The notes beneath the pieces are model-generated. The model worked only from the letters and a program-made list of their open reading frames with translations, ran no database searches and was not told the DNA's origin. Shown here one piece after another: positions 28,613 through 40,845 of a stretch of DNA of 42,498 nucleotides. Each line of letters starts with the position of its first letter. Within the stretch, counting starts at the first letter, position 1. The stretch comes from Chloroflexota bacterium (GTDB lineage: Bacteria > Chloroflexota > Anaerolineae > DTLA01): contig JACIWU010000021.1 in the NCBI GenBank assembly GCA_014360805.1, forward strand, positions 1 through 42,498. Reading direction: 5' to 3'. A program made the position numbers and the translations under genes.

Positions 28613-29905
28613 ATGAAGATAGAGAACGTCGCAGAGACCACGCGGAAGATCACGCTGGACAACGGGCTGCGCATCTTCGTTACCGAGGTGCCCCACACGC
28701 GGGCCATCTCGGTGGGGTTCTTCGTGGCGGTGGGTGCGCGCTACGAAAGCGACCTGATCGCCGGCGCATCCCATCTCATTGAGCACATGATGTTCAAGGG
28801 GAGCCGCAAGCGCCCGACTCCAGGGGCCATATCCCTGGCGCTGGAGTCGGTCGGCGGCATGATGAACGCATCCACCGGCAAGGAACTGACCATCTACTAC
28901 GCTAAGGTCCCCTGCGAACATGGAGACCTGGCGCTGGATGTGCTGGAGGACATGATCCGCTACCCCATCTTTGACCCCGTGGAGTTGGAAAAGGAGCGGA
29001 GGGTCGTCGTGGAGGAAATCCGCATGCTCGTTGACGACCCGCAGAGTTGGTCGCACCTGCTGCTCACGCAGGAGGTGTTTCCGCGCCATCCGCTGGGCCG
29101 CGACATCGCCGGCAGCATTGAGAGCGTGCTGGCGATCCGCCGCGAGGACCTGTTGGACTACATCGCGCAGAACTACGGCGCGCCCAACGTGGTGGTGAGC
29201 GTGGCCGGACGGCTGGACGGGCAGCAGACGGTGGAACGGCTGGCGCGCGCCCTGGAAGACTGGCCTGTGAAGCCCGTGCCCTCCTTCGTCCCCCTGCGCG
29301 GACAGCAGAAGAAGCCGCGCGTGAGGGTGGGCCGCCGCAAGACCGAACAGGCGTATCTCAACATCGCCGTGCGTTCCATCCCGCGCGTGCACCCAGACCG
29401 CTTCAACCTCCTGGTGATGAACGCGGTCATGAGCGAGGGGATGAGTTCGCGCTTGTTCCAAGAGGTGCGCGAAAAGCGCGGCCTGGCCTACAGTGTGGAC
29501 TCGTGGTTTGGCCTGTTCCGCGACGGGGGTATCTGGGGCATTAGCGCGGGCGTGGACCCCAAGCGGCTCACCGAAGCCTACGACGCGATCCTCGGAGAGT
29601 GCGCGCGCATCCGCGAGGAACTCGTGCCGGAAGATGAGTTGACAAAAGCGAAGGAGCAGGTCAAGGGCCGAGTGGTCCTGGGCCTGGAGGACAGTTTCGC
29701 CATTGCCTCGTGGTGGGGCAGGGCCGAGGCCCTCAACGAACCCCTGATGACGGTGGACGAGGTCCTGCAAGCGATAGATAAGGTGGAAGCGGAGGAGGTT
29801 CGGCGACTGGCGGGGCAGTTGATCCAGCCCAGCCGCATGAACGTAACCCTCGTCGGCGCGTTTGGGCCGACGGTGAAGAAAGAACTCCTGGCGCGCCTGG
29901 AGTAG
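28613..29905 (+). CDS. M16-family zinc peptidase (YmxG/PqqL-like)
   Basis: The 430-aa product is a single-unit M16B peptidase like bacterial processing-peptidase homologs. The inverted zinc motif HLIEH is intact (His54, Glu57, His58 in GASHLIEHMMFKG), and the downstream ligand Glu lies in RRVVVEEIRM (about 134-135). The second half carries RKTEQAYLNIAVRSIPRVHPDRF and the typical SRLFQEVREKRGLAYSVDSWF (near 283-303), the R/Y substrate-binding motif. With both parts in one chain it can be active as a homodimer, as known for M16B. No signal peptide, so cytosolic. GAGGTG precedes the ATG at 28613. It follows the TPR gene by 6 nt. Confidence 0.92.
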   Translation: MKIENVAETTRKITLDNGLRIFVTEVPHTRAISVGFFVAVGARYESDLIAGASHLIEHMMFKGSRKRPTPGAISLALESVGGMMNASTGKELTIYYAKVPCEHGDLALDVLEDMIRYPIFDPVELEKERRVVVEEIRMLVDDPQSWSHLLLTQEVFPRHPLGRDIAGSIESVLAIRREDLLDYIAQNYGAPNVVVSVAGRLDGQQTVERLARALEDWPVKPVPSFVPLRGQQKKPRVRVGRRKTEQAYLNIAVRSIPRVHPDRFNLLVMNAVMSEGMSSRLFQEVREKRGLAYSVDSWFGLFRDGGIWGISAGVDPKRLTEAYDAILGECARIREELVPEDELTKAKEQVKGRVVLGLEDSFAIASWWGRAEALNEPLMTVDEVLQAIDKVEAEEVRRLAGQLIQPSRMNVTLVGAFGPTVKKELLARLE

Positions 29906-30795: not shown

Positions 30796-32151
30796 ATGAG
30801 ACGATGGTGGATGGTTGCTTCGCTTTTGGCTTCGGGGATGCTGCTCCTGGGCGCATGCGCTCCCAAGGCCACGCCCACCCCCGCGCCCACGCCCCCGGTC
30901 GGGGATTTGGAGGCGGCGGCTCGCTACTTCACGACCCTGCTCGGCGATGGCAAATACGCCGAGGCCGCGGCCATGTTTGACACCCAGATGGCGGCGGCGT
31001 TCCCCGTCGCCAAACTCAAGGCCACTTGGGAGGAAGTCATCCGCAATGTGGGCGCGCTCCAGGGCATCAAGGAAGTGCGGCTGACCAGCGAAATGGGCTA
31101 CCGCATTGCCTATGTGGCGTGCGACTTCGCCCGCAACCCGCTGGACATGAAGGTCGTGTTTGACGCCGAGGGGCGCATCGCGGGGCTGTGGTTCGTGCCG
31201 CCGGGAAGCGGGGGCACTTGAAGAGCGCCGGACTACGCTGACCCCGCCGCCTTCGCCGAGACGGGGGTTGCCATCGCCGATGGCGACTGCCCGTTGCCGG
31301 CGACGCTGACCATGCCCAACGGCCCGGGGCCATTCCCCGCCGTCGTGCTGGTTCACGGCTCCGGCCCCAACGACCGGGACGAGTCCATCGGCCCCAACAA
31401 GCCGTTCAAGGATTTGGCGTGGGGCCTGGCCACGAGGGGCGTCGCCGTGCTGCGCTACGAGAAGCGCACGAAGCAGTGCCCAGCGCAGATGATGCAGTCC
31501 ATGTCCACGCTCACGGTCAACGAGGAGGTCGTGAACGATGCGCTGGCGGCGGTGGCGTACCTGCGCGGGGTACCGGCCGTTGACCCCGACAGGGTCTTCA
31601 TCCTGGGGCACAGCCTGGGCGGCACCGTGGCCCCGCGCATTGCCGCGCGCGACCCGCGCCTGGCGGGGCTGATCCTGCTGGCGGCCAGCAATCGGAACCT
31701 GGCCGACCTGATGGTGGAGCAGAACGAATACCTGGCCACGCTGGACGGCACGGTTACGGCCGAGGAGGCCCAGGCGCTGGACCAACTCTGCAAGCAGGTG
31801 GAGCGGGTCAAGGCGCTGGACTTCAAAGAAGGCGAGGTGATCCTGGGCGCGGGCCGGGCGTACTGGGCCGACATCCTGGCCTACGATCCGGTCGCGACCG
31901 CGCGGTCGTTGACGGTGCCCATGCTCATCCTGCAGGGCGAGCGGGACTACCAGGTTACGCGGGTGGACTTCGCGGCGTGGAAAGACGGGCTGGCGGGCCG
32001 GGCCGGGGTGCAGTTCAAGTCCTATCCCGCGCTGAATCATCTGTTCATCGCCGGCAGCGGGCAGCCCAACCCGGGCGAGTACGATGTGCCCGGCAACGTG
32101 GCCCGCGAGGTGGTGGACGACATCGCGGCGTGGATTGCGGGCCTGCCGTAG
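30796..32151 (+). pseudogene. DUF3887-alpha/beta hydrolase lipoprotein gene interrupted by an in-frame TGA
   Basis: Two open frames, 30796-31221 (141 aa) and about 31222-32151, are in the same frame with only the TGA at 31219-31221 between them. The first part is a lipoprotein: lipobox LGAC (Cys21), Pro/Thr linker, and a DUF3887-like domain (ARYFTTLLGDGKYAEAAAMFD, GLWFVPPGSG). After the stop the frame continues RAPDYADPAAFAETGVAIADGD CPLPATLTMPNG, then an alpha/beta hydrolase: VHGSGPNDRDESIGPNKPF, nucleophile motif GHSLGG and a late NHLF His. In relatives I recall these parts as one secreted protein of about 450 aa, and DPAAF-ETGV-I lies in its linker. The hydrolase part alone has no good start (TTG 31294 lacks a ribosome site). 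Nonsense mutation, sequencing error or readthrough are all possible. Confidence 0.8.
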
Positions 32152-32264
32152 GCGCGGCTCATCGCGCCGGCGAGCCTGCGCGAGCGGAGCAGGCATTCGC
32201 AGAGCGGTCGCGCGTTGATCAGCACTCTCACCGACATGACGGTGTTCACTGCCAAGACCGCGGA

Positions 32265-32302
32265 GCGCAGAGGCGGCATGATGTGGGCCTCCGCCTCTGC
32301 GC
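32265..32302. terminator. Strong inverted repeat after the hydrolase gene
   Basis: Perfect 12-bp arms GCGCAGAGGCGG (32265-32276) and CCGCCTCTGCGC (32291-32302) around 14 nt. There is no U-tract. It lies between the hydrolase stop and the ABC operon and could be a terminator or another mobile palindrome. Confidence 0.4.
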
Positions 32303-32364
32303 GCCTCGCAGCGAGTCGGGCGGTAACGTTCGTGAAGTGTCGGTATGCACATGAGGAGGGATGA

Positions 32365-33315
32365 ATGACAGCCATAGTTCAAGTGCGGAATCTTTCCAAG
32401 CGGTACATGCCCGAGAACGTCCTGGCGGTGGACGATGTCTCCTTTGAGATTCAGCAGGGGGAAATCTTCAGCCTGTTGGGGCCGAACGGCGCGGGCAAGA
32501 CTACCACAATCTCGGTGTTGAGTTGCCTGCTCGCCCCCACGGCGGGGGACGCCTTTGTGGCGGGCCATTCGGTCGTCCGCGAGCCGATGGAGGTCAAGCG
32601 CGTCATCGGGGTCGTGCCACAGGAGATCGCCCTGTACAACGTGCTGAGCGCGCGCGAGAACCTGGTGTTCTGGGGGCGCATGTACGGGATGGGCGGCCAG
32701 GAGTTGGCACGGCGCGTGGATCAACTGCTGGAACAGGTGGGGCTGGCCGACAGGGCCAAGTCCAGGGTTGGCACCTTTTCCGGCGGGATGAAGCGCAGGC
32801 TCAACATCGCCGTGGGACTCTTGCACAAGCCGCAGATCGTGTACATGGACGAGCCGACGGTGGGCATAGATCCGCAAAGCCGCCGCAATATCCTGGACAT
32901 GGTCAAGGCGCTCAACCGCGAGGGCATGACGGTGCTCTACACGACCCACTACATGGAAGAGGCGCACGAACTGTCCCATCGGGTGGGAATCATGGATCAC
33001 GGCAAGTTGATCGCGCTGGGCACCCAGAAGGAACTCACCCAAAAGGTGGGCGAGTACGAGACATTGCGCCTGCACCTGGGCGAGGATCAAGATCCGGCGC
33101 CGCTGGCCGAGGCCTTGCGGGCCGTCCCGGGCATCGTCCGGGTCTCCACGACCGACCGCGAGATTGTGCTGATCGTCCCCGAAGCCGAAGACGCCCTGCC
33201 GCCTGCCATCACAAAGGCCAACGAACTGGGCGTGAAGGTGCGCTCGGTGGACATCCAGGAGCCGACCCTGGAAACCGTCTTCTTGCACCTGACGGGCCGG
33301 GCGTTGCGGGATTAG
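32365..33315 (+). CDS. ABC-2-type exporter ATP-binding protein
   Basis: ATPase of an ABC-2 (drug or lipid export type) transporter, 316 aa, working with the two permeases encoded next. Motifs: Walker A GPNGAGKTT, Q-loop VVPQEIALYNVLSARENL, signature FSGGMKRRLNIA, Walker B IVYMDEPTVGIDPQSRR with D-loop, and H-loop His in TTHYMEEAHEL. The C-terminal 90 residues form the extra domain usual for CcmA/DrrA-like exporter ATPases. AGGAGGG ends 4 nt before the ATG at 32365; an out-of-frame ATG sits at 32361. The permease gene starts 9 nt after its stop. The exported substrate is unknown. Confidence 0.94.
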   Translation: MTAIVQVRNLSKRYMPENVLAVDDVSFEIQQGEIFSLLGPNGAGKTTTISVLSCLLAPTAGDAFVAGHSVVREPMEVKRVIGVVPQEIALYNVLSARENLVFWGRMYGMGGQELARRVDQLLEQVGLADRAKSRVGTFSGGMKRRLNIAVGLLHKPQIVYMDEPTVGIDPQSRRNILDMVKALNREGMTVLYTTHYMEEAHELSHRVGIMDHGKLIALGTQKELTQKVGEYETLRLHLGEDQDPAPLAEALRAVPGIVRVSTTDREIVLIVPEAEDALPPAITKANELGVKVRSVDIQEPTLETVFLHLTGRALRD

Positions 33316-36075: not shown

Positions 36076-37026
36076 ATGAATATGGATCGCGTCGCCAAGA
36101 TGATGGAGAGGGCGGGCATTCCCGGTCGGGATGCCTACGACCTCCCGTCCAGCCCCAAGCGCTTCCCCGATGGCGCTCACTACCGCATGGAGATTTCCGG
36201 CGTGGAGCGGCCCAACGTGTTGGAGGCGCTTGTTGATGAGATGAACCGGCGCAAGATTCCCATCCACCGGGTCATCTCCGTCGTCATGGGCGCCACGCTC
36301 CTGGACCGCGCGGAACTTCGCGACTTCGCCCAGATTGCCGCCGCGAACCAACTGGAAGTCATCCTGACGCCCGGCCCGCGCGCCGCGTGGGACGTGGGCC
36401 GACAACTGGTTACGCCCGAAGGCGGCCTGTCGGGCTTGCGCTATCGCGGCTCCGACCAACTCCGCTACGTGATCACCGACATCCTCACGTGCATTGAACT
36501 CGGCTTCCGCGGGTTCCTGGTCATTGACGAGGGCCTGCTGTGGCTGCTCAACGAACTGCGCAAGGCCGGCGAAATCCCCAGCGACGTAACGTTCAAGGTC
36601 TCCATCTACGCGGGGCACGCATCGGCAGCGGGCGGCAAGGTGCTCCAGATGCTCGGCGCGGGGACCTTCAACCCCGTGGGCGACTTGAGCCTGCCGCAAC
36701 TGGCCTCCATCCGCCAGGCGGTGGACATTCCGATGGACCTGCACATCTACCTGGCGGAATCCTTCGGCGGGTACAACCGCTTCTACGACGGGGCCGAGAT
36801 GGCGCGGGTCTGCGCGCCCTGCTACTTCAAGATAGAACCCGGGCCTGCCTGCGCCGCCGGGCCGGGGGCGCTGTACAAGCCCTGGACCAGCCCCCAGGCC
36901 CTGGCCGACTTCGCCCGCGAGAAGGTGAAGTACGCGGAGATCATCCACACCCTAATCCAGGAGAACCAGCCCGACCTCATCCTGTCCAAACAGGGCTGCA
37001 AGGGTCTGGCCATACCGAAACCGTAG
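36076..37026 (+). CDS. Uncharacterised TIM-barrel-like protein (peptidase U32-like)
   Basis: The 316-aa cytosolic protein has alternating strands and helices consistent with a (beta/alpha)8 barrel and resembles uncharacterised proteins sometimes filed near peptidase U32; I cannot place it firmly. Striking segments: GAHYRMEISGVERPNVLEALVDEM (about 34-57), LEVILTPGPRAAWDVGRQLV, GFRGFLVIDEGLLWLLNELR, FKVSIYAGHASAAGGKVLQMLGAG, DLHIYLAESFGGYNRFYDGAE and a Cys/Gly/Pro-rich loop CAPCYFKIEPGPACAAGPGALY. C-terminal Lys/Gly motif LSKQGCKGLAIPKP. GGAGG precedes the ATG at 36076. It is the first gene behind the promoter at 35962, 108 nt before the first DapA-Fae gene. It might supply or consume the aldolase substrate, but that is context only. 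Confidence 0.65.
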   Translation: MNMDRVAKMMERAGIPGRDAYDLPSSPKRFPDGAHYRMEISGVERPNVLEALVDEMNRRKIPIHRVISVVMGATLLDRAELRDFAQIAAANQLEVILTPGPRAAWDVGRQLVTPEGGLSGLRYRGSDQLRYVITDILTCIELGFRGFLVIDEGLLWLLNELRKAGEIPSDVTFKVSIYAGHASAAGGKVLQMLGAGTFNPVGDLSLPQLASIRQAVDIPMDLHIYLAESFGGYNRFYDGAEMARVCAPCYFKIEPGPACAAGPGALYKPWTSPQALADFAREKVKYAEIIHTLIQENQPDLILSKQGCKGLAIPKP

Positions 37027-37134
37027 CCTGTCCTATCGTTCCCCGCGGGCGCGCAGAATGCCGGACGCGGCCATCGGGTGGGCCGCCGGTATCCTCTGCG
37101 CGCCGTGCGAGACACCAAAAACGGAGGTTCCCGA

Positions 37135-38562
37135 ATGCCTGCAAAACTGCCGTGGCTGCGGGGCGTCTTCCCCGCGCTGGTAACGCCTTTCACCAAGGAC
37201 GAGGAGGTGGACGAGGCGGCGCTGCGCGCGCTGGTGCGCCACCTGCTGCCCCACGTGGACGGGTTCGTCCCCTGCGGCACCACGGGCGAATTTCCGTACA
37301 TGACCCCCGACGAGCAGAAGCGCGTCATCGCCATCGTCGTGGACGAGGTCGCCGGGCGCAAGCCCATCATCGCCGGCACCAGCGCGGCCGGCACGAAGGA
37401 GACCATCCTCCTGGCGCGCAACGCGAAGGAAGCCGGCGCCAACGCTTGTCTCGTTGTTACGCCTTTCTTCCTTCACCCGTCCGACAAAGGCATCTACCAG
37501 CATTTCTACGACGTGGCGATGGCGGTGGACATCCCCATCATCCTGTACAACATCCCGCAGGTGGTGGACGCTTACCTGCCGCGCAACGTCGTGGAGGACC
37601 TGTCGGACATTCCCAGCATCGTGGGAATCAAGGATTCTTCGGGCAACCTGACCTACACCATGGAGATTCTGGAAATGGTGCAGGGGCGCATAGATGTCTT
37701 CATCGGCCACGACGAGGTGGTGCTGCCGGCCCTGGCTGGCGGGTGCACCGGCATGATTCTGGCCAGCGCCAACGTGTACCCCGAGGTGTGGCAGAAGGTC
37801 TATGCGGCGGTGCAGGAGGGCCGCATAGACGAGGCCCGCGCCCTCCAGCGGAGCGTGCAGAAACTGTCGCGCATCTTCTGTCGCTACGGCGGCGGCCTGG
37901 CCGTGAAGCAGGCGCTGAACATGATGGGGATTCCGGTGGGCAAGGCGCGGCGCCCGCTCAAGGTGGGCGGCAGCCTGACCCACGAGGACCGCGCCGAGAT
38001 TCAACTGGAACTGGAGCGCCTGGGCAAGATCGCCCCCGCGGAAGACCCCTACGCGCCGCCGACGGGGCCTGTCGCCGAACGGTTTGGCGCGTTGGACATC
38101 TCCGCTGAGCAGGTGCGGGCAGAATCGCTGCGAGTGGGCACCGGAGCGGCTGGCGCCGAGCCGGAGAACGCGCAGATAGACCTCATCGCCGGGCCGAAGG
38201 ACGGGATTGTGGGCGAGGTGTTCGCGCTGCAACTCACCTACCCGCGCCACGGCTACGAGGCGCTCACCACCATCCTAGAGCCGAACCTGACCGTGCGGCC
38301 GTCCACGCTCATCGTCCCGACGGCGGAACTCAAGAACCTGCGCCAGGCCAACATGATCTACGGCCCCACCCAGGCCGCGGTGGCCCGCGCCATCGTGGAT
38401 GCCCTAGAAGACGGCACGATTCCCCAGTCGGCCATGGACACGCACGTGATGCTGGTGCAGGCCAGCGTGCACCCCAAAGCCCTGGACCGCCACGCCCTGT
38501 ACCAGGCGGTGCTCGCGGCGGCGGGCGCTGCCATCCGCCAGGCGTTTGGCGCGAACCGATAA
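37135..38562 (+). CDS. DapA-Fae fusion protein 1 (aldolase plus formaldehyde-activating-enzyme-like domain, degenerate)
   Basis: 475 aa in two parts. Residues 1-300: DHDPS/NAL-superfamily barrel with CGTTGEF (47-53), ILYNIP (Tyr138) and GIKDSSG with Schiff-base Lys166. The Tyr-Tyr after TP in DapA is Phe-Phe (111-112), so the Tyr107-like residue is absent; the Arg138-type residue after YNIP is missing too, arguing against dihydrodipicolinate synthesis. Residues about 340-475 resemble Fae (PF08714): AQIDLIAGPKDG, RHGYEALTTILEPNLTVRPSTL, MIYGPTQAAVARAIVDALEDGTIP and VMLVQASVHP. The Fae catalytic His is Gln347 here. GGAGG sits 7 nt before the ATG at 37135. The sister gene begins 12 nt after its stop. 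It may be a non-catalytic or regulatory partner; that is inference. Confidence 0.85.
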   Translation: MPAKLPWLRGVFPALVTPFTKDEEVDEAALRALVRHLLPHVDGFVPCGTTGEFPYMTPDEQKRVIAIVVDEVAGRKPIIAGTSAAGTKETILLARNAKEAGANACLVVTPFFLHPSDKGIYQHFYDVAMAVDIPIILYNIPQVVDAYLPRNVVEDLSDIPSIVGIKDSSGNLTYTMEILEMVQGRIDVFIGHDEVVLPALAGGCTGMILASANVYPEVWQKVYAAVQEGRIDEARALQRSVQKLSRIFCRYGGGLAVKQALNMMGIPVGKARRPLKVGGSLTHEDRAEIQLELERLGKIAPAEDPYAPPTGPVAERFGALDISAEQVRAESLRVGTGAAGAEPENAQIDLIAGPKDGIVGEVFALQLTYPRHGYEALTTILEPNLTVRPSTLIVPTAELKNLRQANMIYGPTQAAVARAIVDALEDGTIPQSAMDTHVMLVQASVHPKALDRHALYQAVLAAAGAAIRQAFGANR

Positions 38563-38574
38563 GGAGAGTCCCCT

Positions 38575-40050
38575 ATGTCAAAGAAACCCGAATGGTTCAA
38601 AGGAATCTTCCCCGCCCTGGTTACGCCCTTCACCAAGGACGACCGGGTGGATGAGGCCGCCTACCGCGAACTCATCCGTTACGTCCTGCCCCACGTGAAC
38701 GGGATCGTTCCCTGCGGCACCACGGGCGAGTTCGTGTACATGCTGGAGGACGAGCGCAAGCGGGCCATTGAGATCGCGCTGGACGAGGTCAACGGGCGCG
38801 TGCCCGTCGTGGCCGGCACGGCCTACCCGTCCACCCGCGAGACCGTCAAGATGACCGCGTGGGCGAGGGACGCCGGCGTTACCGCCGCCCTTGTCGCCGC
38901 GCCCTACTACCTGAAGCCGTCGTTCAACGAGGTGTACGACCACTACGAGGCGCTGAACAAACTGGGCGTGCCGCTCATCCTGTACAACATCCCCCAGTGC
39001 GCCGGCACCCACTACCAGTGGTGGACGACGGAGGGCATGGCGTATCTGGACAACGTGGTGGGTATCAAGGATTCCAGCGGCGATATGCCCTACCTGATGG
39101 CCGTGTTTGAGAAGGTGCGGGGCAAGATCGGCATCTTCACCGGCCACGATGAGATCGTGCCTGCTGCGCTGGCGATGGGGGCCGATGGCGCGATTCTGGC
39201 CAGCGCCAACGTCATCCCCGACGTGTGGCAGACCATCTACAAAGCGGTGCTGTCGGGCGACCTGGCGACGGCCCAGACCCTCATGGCGCGCATCCAGCGG
39301 TTCGTGCGCATCCTGGCCCGCCAGGGTCCGACCCAGGCGGTGAAGGAGGCGCTCCAGTTGTTGGGGCTTCCCATCGGCGATTCGCGCCACCCGATGATGA
39401 AGGGCGACGCCTTCCGCCGGGAGGACTACGAGGAGGTGCGGGGCGTGCTGGAGGAGTTGGGCAAGATTCCGCCGCGCCCCATGACCTACCATCTGTACGC
39501 CGGCGCGCCGGGGGTCCAGGGGCAGTTCCCGAAGCCGCCCGCCGCGCCCTCGGAAGTCCGCGATATGACGCTCCTGGTGGGCGAGGGCTTCGCCGGTCCT
39601 CCGTTCTCGGAACTGGCCCACATTGACCTGCTCATCGGGCGCAGGGACGGCCCGGTGGGCAAAGCCATAGAGCGGGCGCTGGCCGAACCGCGCCCCGGCC
39701 ACGAACTGCGCATCATCTTTGAGCGCCCGCGAACGCTCCTGGTGCCCACCGTAACCGTGAGGACGAAGAAGCAGGCGGAGATGGTGTACGAGCACGCTGC
39801 AGGCGGCGTCGTCATGGCGCTGGAGGCGCTGGTCAAAGACGGCACGCTGCCGGCGGCCCTGCTGGACGACATCGTGCTCATCGCCAACGTCTTCGTCCAT
39901 CCGGGGGCCAGCAACCGGTGGCGGGTGCGCATCAACAACTTTAAGGCGATGAAGGCCGCCACGCGTAAGGCGCTGGAAGGCCGCCCGACGCTGGACGAAC
40001 TGATCGCGGAAAAGGAGTCGGCGCGGCACCCGTTCCGCTACGCGCCGTAG
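38575..40050 (+). CDS. DapA-Fae fusion protein 2 (aldolase plus formaldehyde-activating-enzyme-like domain)
   Basis: 491 aa. Residues 1-300: DHDPS/NAL barrel with CGTTGEF (47-53), Tyr111-Tyr112 kept, ILYNIP (Tyr137) and GIKDSSG with Lys165; again no Arg after YNIP, so aspartate semialdehyde is unlikely as substrate. Residues about 330-491 resemble Fae: TLLVGEGFAGPPFSELAHIDLLIG (His349 in the catalytic position), RPRTLLVPTVTV, IVLIANVFVHPGA, and a tail ESARHPF like the KSATHPF end of methylotroph Fae (from memory). The FGPAQ-type motif is replaced (VYEHAAGGVVMALEALV). Known Fae joins formaldehyde to tetrahydromethanopterin; barrel aldolases of this kind use pyruvate with an aldehyde. A formaldehyde-handling bifunctional enzyme is my inference. 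A nitrilase-family gene starts 10 nt downstream. Confidence 0.87.
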   Translation: MSKKPEWFKGIFPALVTPFTKDDRVDEAAYRELIRYVLPHVNGIVPCGTTGEFVYMLEDERKRAIEIALDEVNGRVPVVAGTAYPSTRETVKMTAWARDAGVTAALVAAPYYLKPSFNEVYDHYEALNKLGVPLILYNIPQCAGTHYQWWTTEGMAYLDNVVGIKDSSGDMPYLMAVFEKVRGKIGIFTGHDEIVPAALAMGADGAILASANVIPDVWQTIYKAVLSGDLATAQTLMARIQRFVRILARQGPTQAVKEALQLLGLPIGDSRHPMMKGDAFRREDYEEVRGVLEELGKIPPRPMTYHLYAGAPGVQGQFPKPPAAPSEVRDMTLLVGEGFAGPPFSELAHIDLLIGRRDGPVGKAIERALAEPRPGHELRIIFERPRTLLVPTVTVRTKKQAEMVYEHAAGGVVMALEALVKDGTLPAALLDDIVLIANVFVHPGASNRWRVRINNFKAMKAATRKALEGRPTLDELIAEKESARHPFRYAP

Positions 40051-40059
40051 GGTGTTGCC

Positions 40060-40845
40060 ATGCGTGCCGTCCGTGTGACCGCAATCCAGATGCACATTGC
40101 GGCGGGCGACCTGGCCGGCAACCGCCGCCGCATGGCCGAACTGACGCGGCGCGCGCTGGACGAGGGGGCGCGCCTGGTGCTGCTGCCGGAGCTTGCCGCC
40201 TGCGGCTACGACTGGCCCCGCCTGGACGCGCTGGCCGAGCCGCTGGACGGCGCAACGACCGAGGCGATGGCGGGCCTGGCCGCCCGCTATCGCGCCTACG
40301 TGGCGTGGGGTATGGCGGAGCGCGAAGGTTCTCGCTTCTACAACACCCTGGCGCTGGCCGGCCCCGACGGGAAACTTCTGGCCCGCTACCGCAAGGCGCA
40401 TCTGATTCCCCTGCTGCGCGAGCCGGACTATTTCACTCCTGGCGATGAGGTCGTCGTTGCGGCGACGGACGTCGGGGTCCTCGGCCTGGCGATTTGCTAC
40501 GACCTGCGCTTCCCCGGCCTGTTCCAGCGCATGGCGGCGCACGGCGCAGAGGTGTTGCTGGTGGGCGCGCAGTGGCCGCAGGCGCGGGCCGAACACTGGC
40601 GCATTCTGACGGTGGCGGCGGCGCTGCAAAGCCTGGCCTTCCTCGTGGGCGCGAATGGGGTGGGCCTTTGCAACGGCGAGGCGCTGGCGGGGCGAACGGT
40701 CGTGGCGTCGCCGTGGGGCGAGCGCGTGGCCGAGGCGGGCGTCGCGGAGGAAATCCTGTGCGCCGACGTGGACCTGGACGATGTGGCCAAGGCGCGGCGA
40801 AAACTGCCCGTCGGCCAGGGGCAGCGGCCGGAGTTGTACCCGTAG
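40060..40845 (+). CDS. Carbon-nitrogen hydrolase (nitrilase superfamily)
   Basis: The 261-aa cytosolic enzyme has the Glu-Lys-Cys triad of the nitrilase superfamily: LLLPELAACGY (Glu44), YRKAHLIP (Lys112) and LAICYDLRFPGLF (Cys146). The length and ICYDLRFPG motif match omega-amidase, Nit-type and other small-amide hydrolases rather than large nitrilases. It is the last gene of the unit starting at 36076, 10 nt after DapA-Fae 2. GCC ATG at 40060 has no strong Shine-Dalgarno; coupling to the preceding stop is likely. The amide substrate is unknown; an amide made or released with the aldolase pathway is possible. Confidence 0.92.
   Translation: MRAVRVTAIQMHIAAGDLAGNRRRMAELTRRALDEGARLVLLPELAACGYDWPRLDALAEPLDGATTEAMAGLAARYRAYVAWGMAEREGSRFYNTLALAGPDGKLLARYRKAHLIPLLREPDYFTPGDEVVVAATDVGVLGLAICYDLRFPGLFQRMAAHGAEVLLVGAQWPQARAEHWRILTVAAALQSLAFLVGANGVGLCNGEALAGRTVVASPWGERVAEAGVAEEILCADVDLDDVAKARRKLPVGQGQRPELYP

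Follow-up and report, generated by a model that had tools for sequence, protein, structure and literature searches.

The formaldehyde-activating enzyme Fae speeds the condensation of formaldehyde with tetrahydromethanopterin (H4MPT) (PMC8879981). In archaea, Fae domains also occur joined to hexulose-phosphate synthase in Fae-Hps proteins, while the class I aldolases of the dihydrodipicolinate synthase/N-acetylneuraminate lyase (DHDPS/NAL) family form a separate group of Schiff-base enzymes. A different combination is encoded in a 42,498-nucleotide stretch of a Chloroflexota bacterium (contig JACIWU010000021.1 of assembly GCA_014360805.1; hereafter the window), in which two open reading frames (ORFs), lying in the same frame with 12 nt between them, each specify a protein with an N-terminal DHDPS/NAL barrel and a C-terminal Fae domain. 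The two products, referred to here as copies A and B, are 44% identical, and their features suggest that they may act together in handling formaldehyde. The features of the pair are as follows.

37135-38562, forward strand: copy A, DapA-Fae fusion of 475 amino acids, start ATG at 37135 and stop codon at 38560-38562 (ORF, Pfam/NCBIfam profiles).
38575-40050, forward strand: copy B, DapA-Fae fusion of 491 amino acids, start ATG at 38575 and end at 40050 (ORF, Pfam/NCBIfam profiles).
37123-37127, forward strand: GGAGG, Shine-Dalgarno-like sequence of copy A (sequence).
38563-38566, forward strand: GGAG, Shine-Dalgarno-like sequence of copy B, immediately 3' of the copy A stop (sequence).
37156-38001, forward strand: copy A aldolase (DHDPS/NAL) domain, residues 8-289 (Pfam profile, residue alignment).
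38137-38547, forward strand: copy A Fae domain, residues 335-471 (Pfam profile, PDB match, motif comparison).
38596-39408, forward strand: copy B aldolase (DHDPS/NAL) domain, residues 8-278, with catalytic Lys, Tyr and Thr intact (Pfam profile, residue alignment).
39577-40035, forward strand: copy B Fae domain, residues 335-487 (Pfam profile, PDB match, motif comparison).

The original prediction, made from the letters of the window, had proposed an aldolase-type Schiff-base barrel and a C-terminal Fae domain in both copies, and profile searches bore out both assignments. DHDPS PF00701 scored 237 bits in copy A (residues 8-289) and 237 bits in copy B (8-278; E about 1e-70, Pfam cut-off 22.1 bits), and Fae PF08714 scored 127.9 bits in copy A (335-471) and 114.4 bits in copy B (335-487), with E values of 1e-33 to 1e-37 and a cut-off of 27 bits. 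Both copies also passed the NCBIfam profile one_C_fae TIGR03126 (A 122.5, B 127.5; cut-off 118.05), and the best PDB match of each C-terminal domain was Methylobacterium Fae 1y5y (E 6e-18 and 6e-20). The motifs named in that prediction are present in the sequence, its ambiguous A-H/Q being H in copy B and Q in copy A. A predicted model spanning both copies, folded as a single chain in which the copy A stop codon was read as glycine so that the two would fold together, matched DHDPS crystal structures with a TM-score of up to 0.95 of the target. The predicted-structure check thus upheld the proposed N-terminal fold; a Fae fold was not among the matches listed, which were DHDPS/NAL throughout, so the Fae assignment rests on sequence rather than on the fold search. 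An assembly chimera is ruled out, since the two-domain frame was found again in dozens of other genomes.

The catalytic residues of the barrel are almost invariant. In copy A, the Schiff-base Lys166 (GIKDSSG), Tyr138 (YNIP) and Thr49-Thr50 are all in place; among 99 fusions, the Schiff-base Lys is kept in 98/99, the Tyr133 equivalent in 99/99 and the Thr44 equivalent in 98/99. As these residues occur in essentially all copies, the aldolase barrel is probably active. The sole exception at the lysine is a Thorarchaeotal copy B (L029:11387-12859), in which Asn takes its place (GMNDSSA); this may be an error in the sequence, or the B barrel in question may lack Schiff-base chemistry. Variation was also noted at the position equivalent to Tyr107 of DapA. 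In Chloroflexota, A usually has Phe there and B usually has Tyr, in Thor- and Lokiarchaeota the usual assignment is reversed, and at a few loci both copies have Phe; the Tyr/Phe split is possibly another division of labour, here across a barrel dimer.

The Fae domains, on the other hand, divide the canonical residues between them. Canonical positions were defined as those at least 93% conserved across 16 rows (nine Fae-Hps and seven single-copy fusions). On this basis, E8, A18, H19, N131, H161 and P162 are retained only in B, and P55, N56, G82 and P83 only in A, with the same result in Asgard and non-Asgard subsets. Copy A retains the EPN loop and GPTQ, carries Gln at the position of the canonical His, and lacks both the Phe of FVHP and the C-terminal HPF tail. 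Copy B retains AHIDL, NVFVHP and an ARHPF tail, its PN loop is deleted and it has no GPxQ; its canonical His corresponds to His17 of Methylobacterium extorquens Fae. The complete set (His, PN loop, GPxQ, FVHP and HPF tail) is therefore found in one chain in single-copy relatives but in neither A nor B. This partition of key motifs holds over 48 A and 44 B copies, drawn from Chloroflexota as well as from several phyla of archaea: 44/44 B copies have all three histidines (canonical, FVHP and tail), and GP is present in 48/48 A copies, with PN in most. Complementation within an A:B heteromer, such that a Fae-type site would need both subunits, is the best reading of this pattern.

The tandem pair is kept in other genomes. 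A scan of contigs from GTDB representatives, in which homologues spanned all or almost all of the fusion, found it in Anaerolineae and Thermoflexia (Chloroflexota), in Methanomassiliicoccales and other Thermoplasmatota, and in Bathyarchaeota, Baldrarchaeum, Hermodarchaeota, Thorarchaeota and Lokiarchaeota. In a sample of 298 Anaerolineae genomes, a Fae domain was detected in 38 and fusions in 37, with two matches in 34 of these 37. A stand-alone, canonical-scoring Fae (243 bits) occurs in the Anaerolineae genome G307 (L118, G307:C6, around 32102-32575) with methenyl-H4MPT cyclohydrolase (Mch) on the same contig, and is apparently an ordinary H4MPT-type Fae within this class. Among 200 genomes sampled from the class of one Thermoplasmata metagenome-assembled genome, Fae domains were found in 3, two per genome. 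At most loci, A and B overlap at start and stop or are separated by a very short gap, suggesting coupled translation, and Shine-Dalgarno sites are plausible ahead of both start codons in the window. In two Anaerolineae genomes the copies are unlinked yet both present, 30 kb apart in G038 and on separate contigs in G048.

Phylogenetic analysis is consistent with a simple origin of the pair. The Fae-domain tree needs no more than the minimum of 3 changes to separate A (30 rows, support 100/100), B (29 rows, 98/92), the single-copy fusions and Fae-Hps into four groups, and in the aldolase-domain tree every fusion stood apart from the sampled unfused DHDPS (support 100/99). These patterns fit a single fusion event followed by a single duplication into A and B. 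Bathyarchaeia and Hermodarchaeia encode one fusion only, with all canonical Fae motifs present, and we infer that this form is unduplicated rather than secondarily reduced, with the placement of the root left free by the trees. The aldolase tree places Chloroflexota A rows beside Methanomassiliicoccales, inside Thermoplasmatota (99/93), and this nesting suggests that the pair moved from archaea to bacteria.

The cofactor context separates the source bacterium from classical Fae systems. A genome search did not find Mch in the source genome, and RFAP synthase gave only a 22-bit match against a cut-off of 113.5; the folate marker FolD is present. Thus, the H4MPT framing of the original prediction held only in part, as these markers are missing and the canonical Fae residues are incomplete in each copy, and an ordinary H4MPT-dependent Fae is unlikely in this organism. 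Across 31 fusion genomes, Mch was present in Thor- and Lokiarchaeota, nearly all Bathyarchaeia, Hermodarchaeia and Baldrarchaeum, and was found in no Methanomassiliicoccales/Thermoplasmata genome and in no Chloroflexota genome except G003. FolD followed a nearly opposite pattern, overlapping with Mch in some Thorarchaeota, and the combination of FolD with no Mch is seen in the source genome and, among the pair genomes checked, in most of those from Chloroflexota, Methanomassiliicoccales and Thermoplasmata. RFAP synthase exceeded its cut-off in four fusion genomes only and was missed in many Mch-positive ones, which makes it a weak marker of H4MPT. Mch is likewise absent from 30/37 Anaerolineae fusion genomes. 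The A/B pair is therefore not strictly tied to H4MPT, and for the source bacterium, with no such markers, the best candidate carrier is tetrahydrofolate. The most direct folate link observed is an operon in two genomes of one Anaerolineae family, where MetV-like, MTHFR and HdrBC-like genes precede the pair on the same strand.

Based on these observations, a scheme can be proposed, to which we assign a probability of about 0.5, in which A and B would be subunits of one heteromeric enzyme, each composed of a class I (lysine Schiff-base) pyruvate-type aldolase barrel and a Fae-type domain, with formaldehyde passing between aldolase and pterin sites. The pair would have arisen when an ancestral archaeal fusion of aldolase and Fae, a single chain, was duplicated, after which each copy would have dropped part of the Fae residue set while retaining part lost by the other, and a working Fae-type site would probably exist only where the Fae domain of A meets that of B. 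By analogy with archaeal Fae-Hps, formaldehyde may be exchanged between the aldolase site and a reduced pterin in the Fae site. At the aldolase site, pyruvate or some other 2-oxo acid would take part in an aldol addition or cleavage, for example in 4-hydroxy-2-oxobutanoate chemistry, and the net effect would be to swap a hydroxymethyl group between a 2-oxo acid and methylene-pterin, in one direction or the other, with H4MPT as carrier in H4MPT-bearing archaea and probably tetrahydrofolate in the source bacterium. In a more specific version, an A:B heteromer with one shared Fae-type site would move one-carbon units between methylene-tetrahydrofolate and a 2-oxo acid through a class I aldolase, its ancestor having been archaeal and H4MPT-dependent before transfer to Chloroflexota. 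This version is tentative and rather doubtful as a whole, and any named substrate is more speculative still.

Several observations weigh against this scheme. A column test of complementary loss was not significant (both 9, B only 19, A only 10, neither 12; Fisher p = 0.39), and for this reason the complementation argument rests on the clustering of motifs and their consistency across lineages. The shared-site idea leans on the structure of M. extorquens Fae, whose site reportedly lies between subunits; Fae is a pentamer, and an odd-numbered ring is at odds with strict alternation of A and B. The copy A Fae domain of Thor- and Lokiarchaeota is very divergent and may be non-catalytic, and Mch is present in these same lineages. 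Moreover, Mch is commoner in Anaerolineae fusion genomes (7/37) than in the rest of the sample (11/261; Fisher p = 0.003, uncorrected for kinship), and the folate link consists of gene content and one operon type. The single-chain model of the two copies has good domains and confident barrels with a predicted TM-score (pTM) of 0.47 and uncertain packing; at this pTM it says nothing about an A:B interface and was not used as evidence for one.

Three other explanations deserve consideration. The fusions could be the genome's own DapA (4-hydroxy-tetrahydrodipicolinate synthase) serving lysine synthesis, the Fae part being incidental. They are indeed the sole DHDPS-family genes of the source genome, and copy A (227 bits) exceeds the NCBIfam dapA cut-off of 206 bits, with copy B (199) just under it. 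However, the C-terminal domain of DapB was found in 0/25 fusion genomes, including the source genome, by the same search that was positive in 11/14 control genomes, and the equivalent of DapA Arg138 (E. coli numbering), which binds aspartate semialdehyde, is Cys, Val, Thr or Ala in 99/99 fusions. We reject a lysine-pathway identity on these two grounds, leaving it a very small probability. With Arg138 and DapB missing and no other DHDPS-family gene in the genome, the barrel is most likely a different 2-oxo acid aldolase. The addition of pyruvate to formaldehyde is within the reach of class I 4-hydroxy-2-oxoglutarate aldolase (PMC7918591), and by analogy 4-hydroxy-2-oxobutanoate is a reasonable guess for the product.

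It is also conceivable that the Fae domains perform no chemistry and serve as oligomerisation or formaldehyde/pterin-sensing appendages of a DHDPS/NAL-family 2-oxo acid aldolase or lyase. This possibility is consistent with the incomplete Fae motif set of either copy, with the missing H4MPT markers (Mch, and RFAP synthase above cut-off) and with the better preservation of aldolase residues than of Fae residues; the GHDE motif of the barrel, which resembles the GYDE substrate-binding motif of N-acetylneuraminate lyase, was counted in its favour as well. Simple decay, however, would not be expected to fix opposite motif sets as uniformly as the His trio of B and the GP and PN of A are fixed, and every Fae motif is kept in the single-copy relatives, so that inactive Fae domains appear possible but rather improbable. 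Somewhat less probable, and in our view unlikely, is that A and B are independent neighbouring enzymes with different substrates, whose motif differences reflect specialisation rather than complementation. Their age as paralogues (44% identical in the window), the two Anaerolineae genomes in which they are unlinked, the variation of aldolase residue 107 (Tyr or Phe) among copies and lineages, and the non-significant column test would all be compatible with such independence, but the near-constant co-occurrence of two matches in Anaerolineae fusion genomes and in each of the three Thermoplasmata genomes, together with the overlapping or adjacent genes at most loci, argues against it.

Genes flanking the pair in the window include two that were compared across loci.

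36076-37026, forward strand: c6, 316 amino acids, a predicted triosephosphate isomerase (TIM) barrel with no Pfam/NCBIfam match, directly upstream of the fusions (profiles, model).
40060-40845, forward strand: carbon-nitrogen hydrolase of the nitrilase superfamily, 9 nt downstream of copy B (profile, locus comparison).

The predicted model of c6 (pLDDT 80) retrieved only generic TIM barrels in a fold search, with TM of about 0.5 or less. Homologues with 65-97% identity to the c6 of the window lie next to the fusion in Chloroflexota, Baldrarchaeum, Hermodarchaeota and some Thermoplasmata. Searches of Thor/Loki, Bathyarchaeal and small Methanomassiliicoccales genomes did not find c6, which is therefore not an obligatory partner; it is a candidate for the next step of the pathway rather than a core part. 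No neighbour beyond c6 was common across lineages at the loci compared. A distant paralogue of c6 in the same genome (contig C25, L100:9903-10817; about 39% identical) lies beside a creatininase-family gene and a flavin mononucleotide (FMN) oxidoreductase, and the related copies in related genomes have an aldehyde ferredoxin oxidoreductase and similar neighbours alongside, a context that reveals no substrate. The carbon-nitrogen hydrolase, perhaps co-transcribed with the pair, is linked to it only in the closest relatives (L003, L004) and hence is not core. In several Anaerolineae (L129, L132, L133 and L008; partly L130, L134 and L005), indolepyruvate-oxidoreductase-like genes, CTP synthase and a transaldolase/fructose-6-phosphate-aldolase family gene are followed by c6, A and B. 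Elsewhere in the window (28613-29905), an M16-family peptidase resembles YfmF/YfmH, which are associated with 5-aminopentanol modification of EF-P, with scores under the curated cut-offs.

If the proposed scheme is correct, the pair would represent a natural aldolase-Fae module with which archaea and bacteria that are mostly known through metagenomes assimilate one-carbon units or scavenge formaldehyde outside the classical systems, H4MPT and ribulose monophosphate (RuMP). It would also provide a candidate enzyme for formaldehyde-folate condensation, an example of paralogues sharing out one active site, and a ready part for synthetic formaldehyde assimilation via 4-hydroxy-2-oxobutanoate, with the single-copy archaeal form serving as a built-in control for the evolutionary account. 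The original prediction knew of no described system of this kind, and a literature search supported this: no paper pairing Fae with dihydrodipicolinate synthase was found among the open-access papers searched, and the main text of an archaeal fusion survey does not mention such a fusion (PMC11237513).

In comparison with known systems, the C-terminal domains are homologous to Fae (PF08714/TIGR03126; M. extorquens 1y5y, 1y60) above family cut-offs, and copy B shares its conserved His, FVHP and HPF tail; unlike Fae, they are fused to an aldolase, have their canonical residues split over two paralogues and occur in a host without Mch or RFAP synthase above cut-off. The barrels resemble class I aldolases of the DHDPS/NAL family (DapA, NanA and KDG aldolases) over their whole length, including the Schiff-base Lys, the Tyr and the Thr, but differ in lacking DapA Arg138, in their YNIPQ and GHDE signatures, in the attached Fae domain and in forming their own clade among sampled relatives. 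The parallel with archaeal Fae-Hps (NF009833/PRK13307) drawn in the original prediction is well founded, since both join Fae to a formaldehyde-handling TIM-barrel aldolase. The single-fusion archaea checked encode Fae-Hps too, and Bathyarchaeal Fae-Hps proteins (L104, L105, L109, L110, L111) are extended at the N-terminus by some 70-95 residues that by eye resemble a helix-turn-helix. NF009833 matches only the Fae part of the fusions, below cut-off, and the C-terminal hexulose-6-phosphate synthase domain of Fae-Hps is absent from them; instead, their Fae domain is preceded by a class I barrel of the DHDPS/NAL type, and in most lineages they occur as an A/B pair. The parts are known; their combination and the split between paralogues appear to be new. 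The apparent split, together with the occurrence of the pair in a genome without H4MPT pathway markers, suggests an undescribed route for moving one-carbon units.

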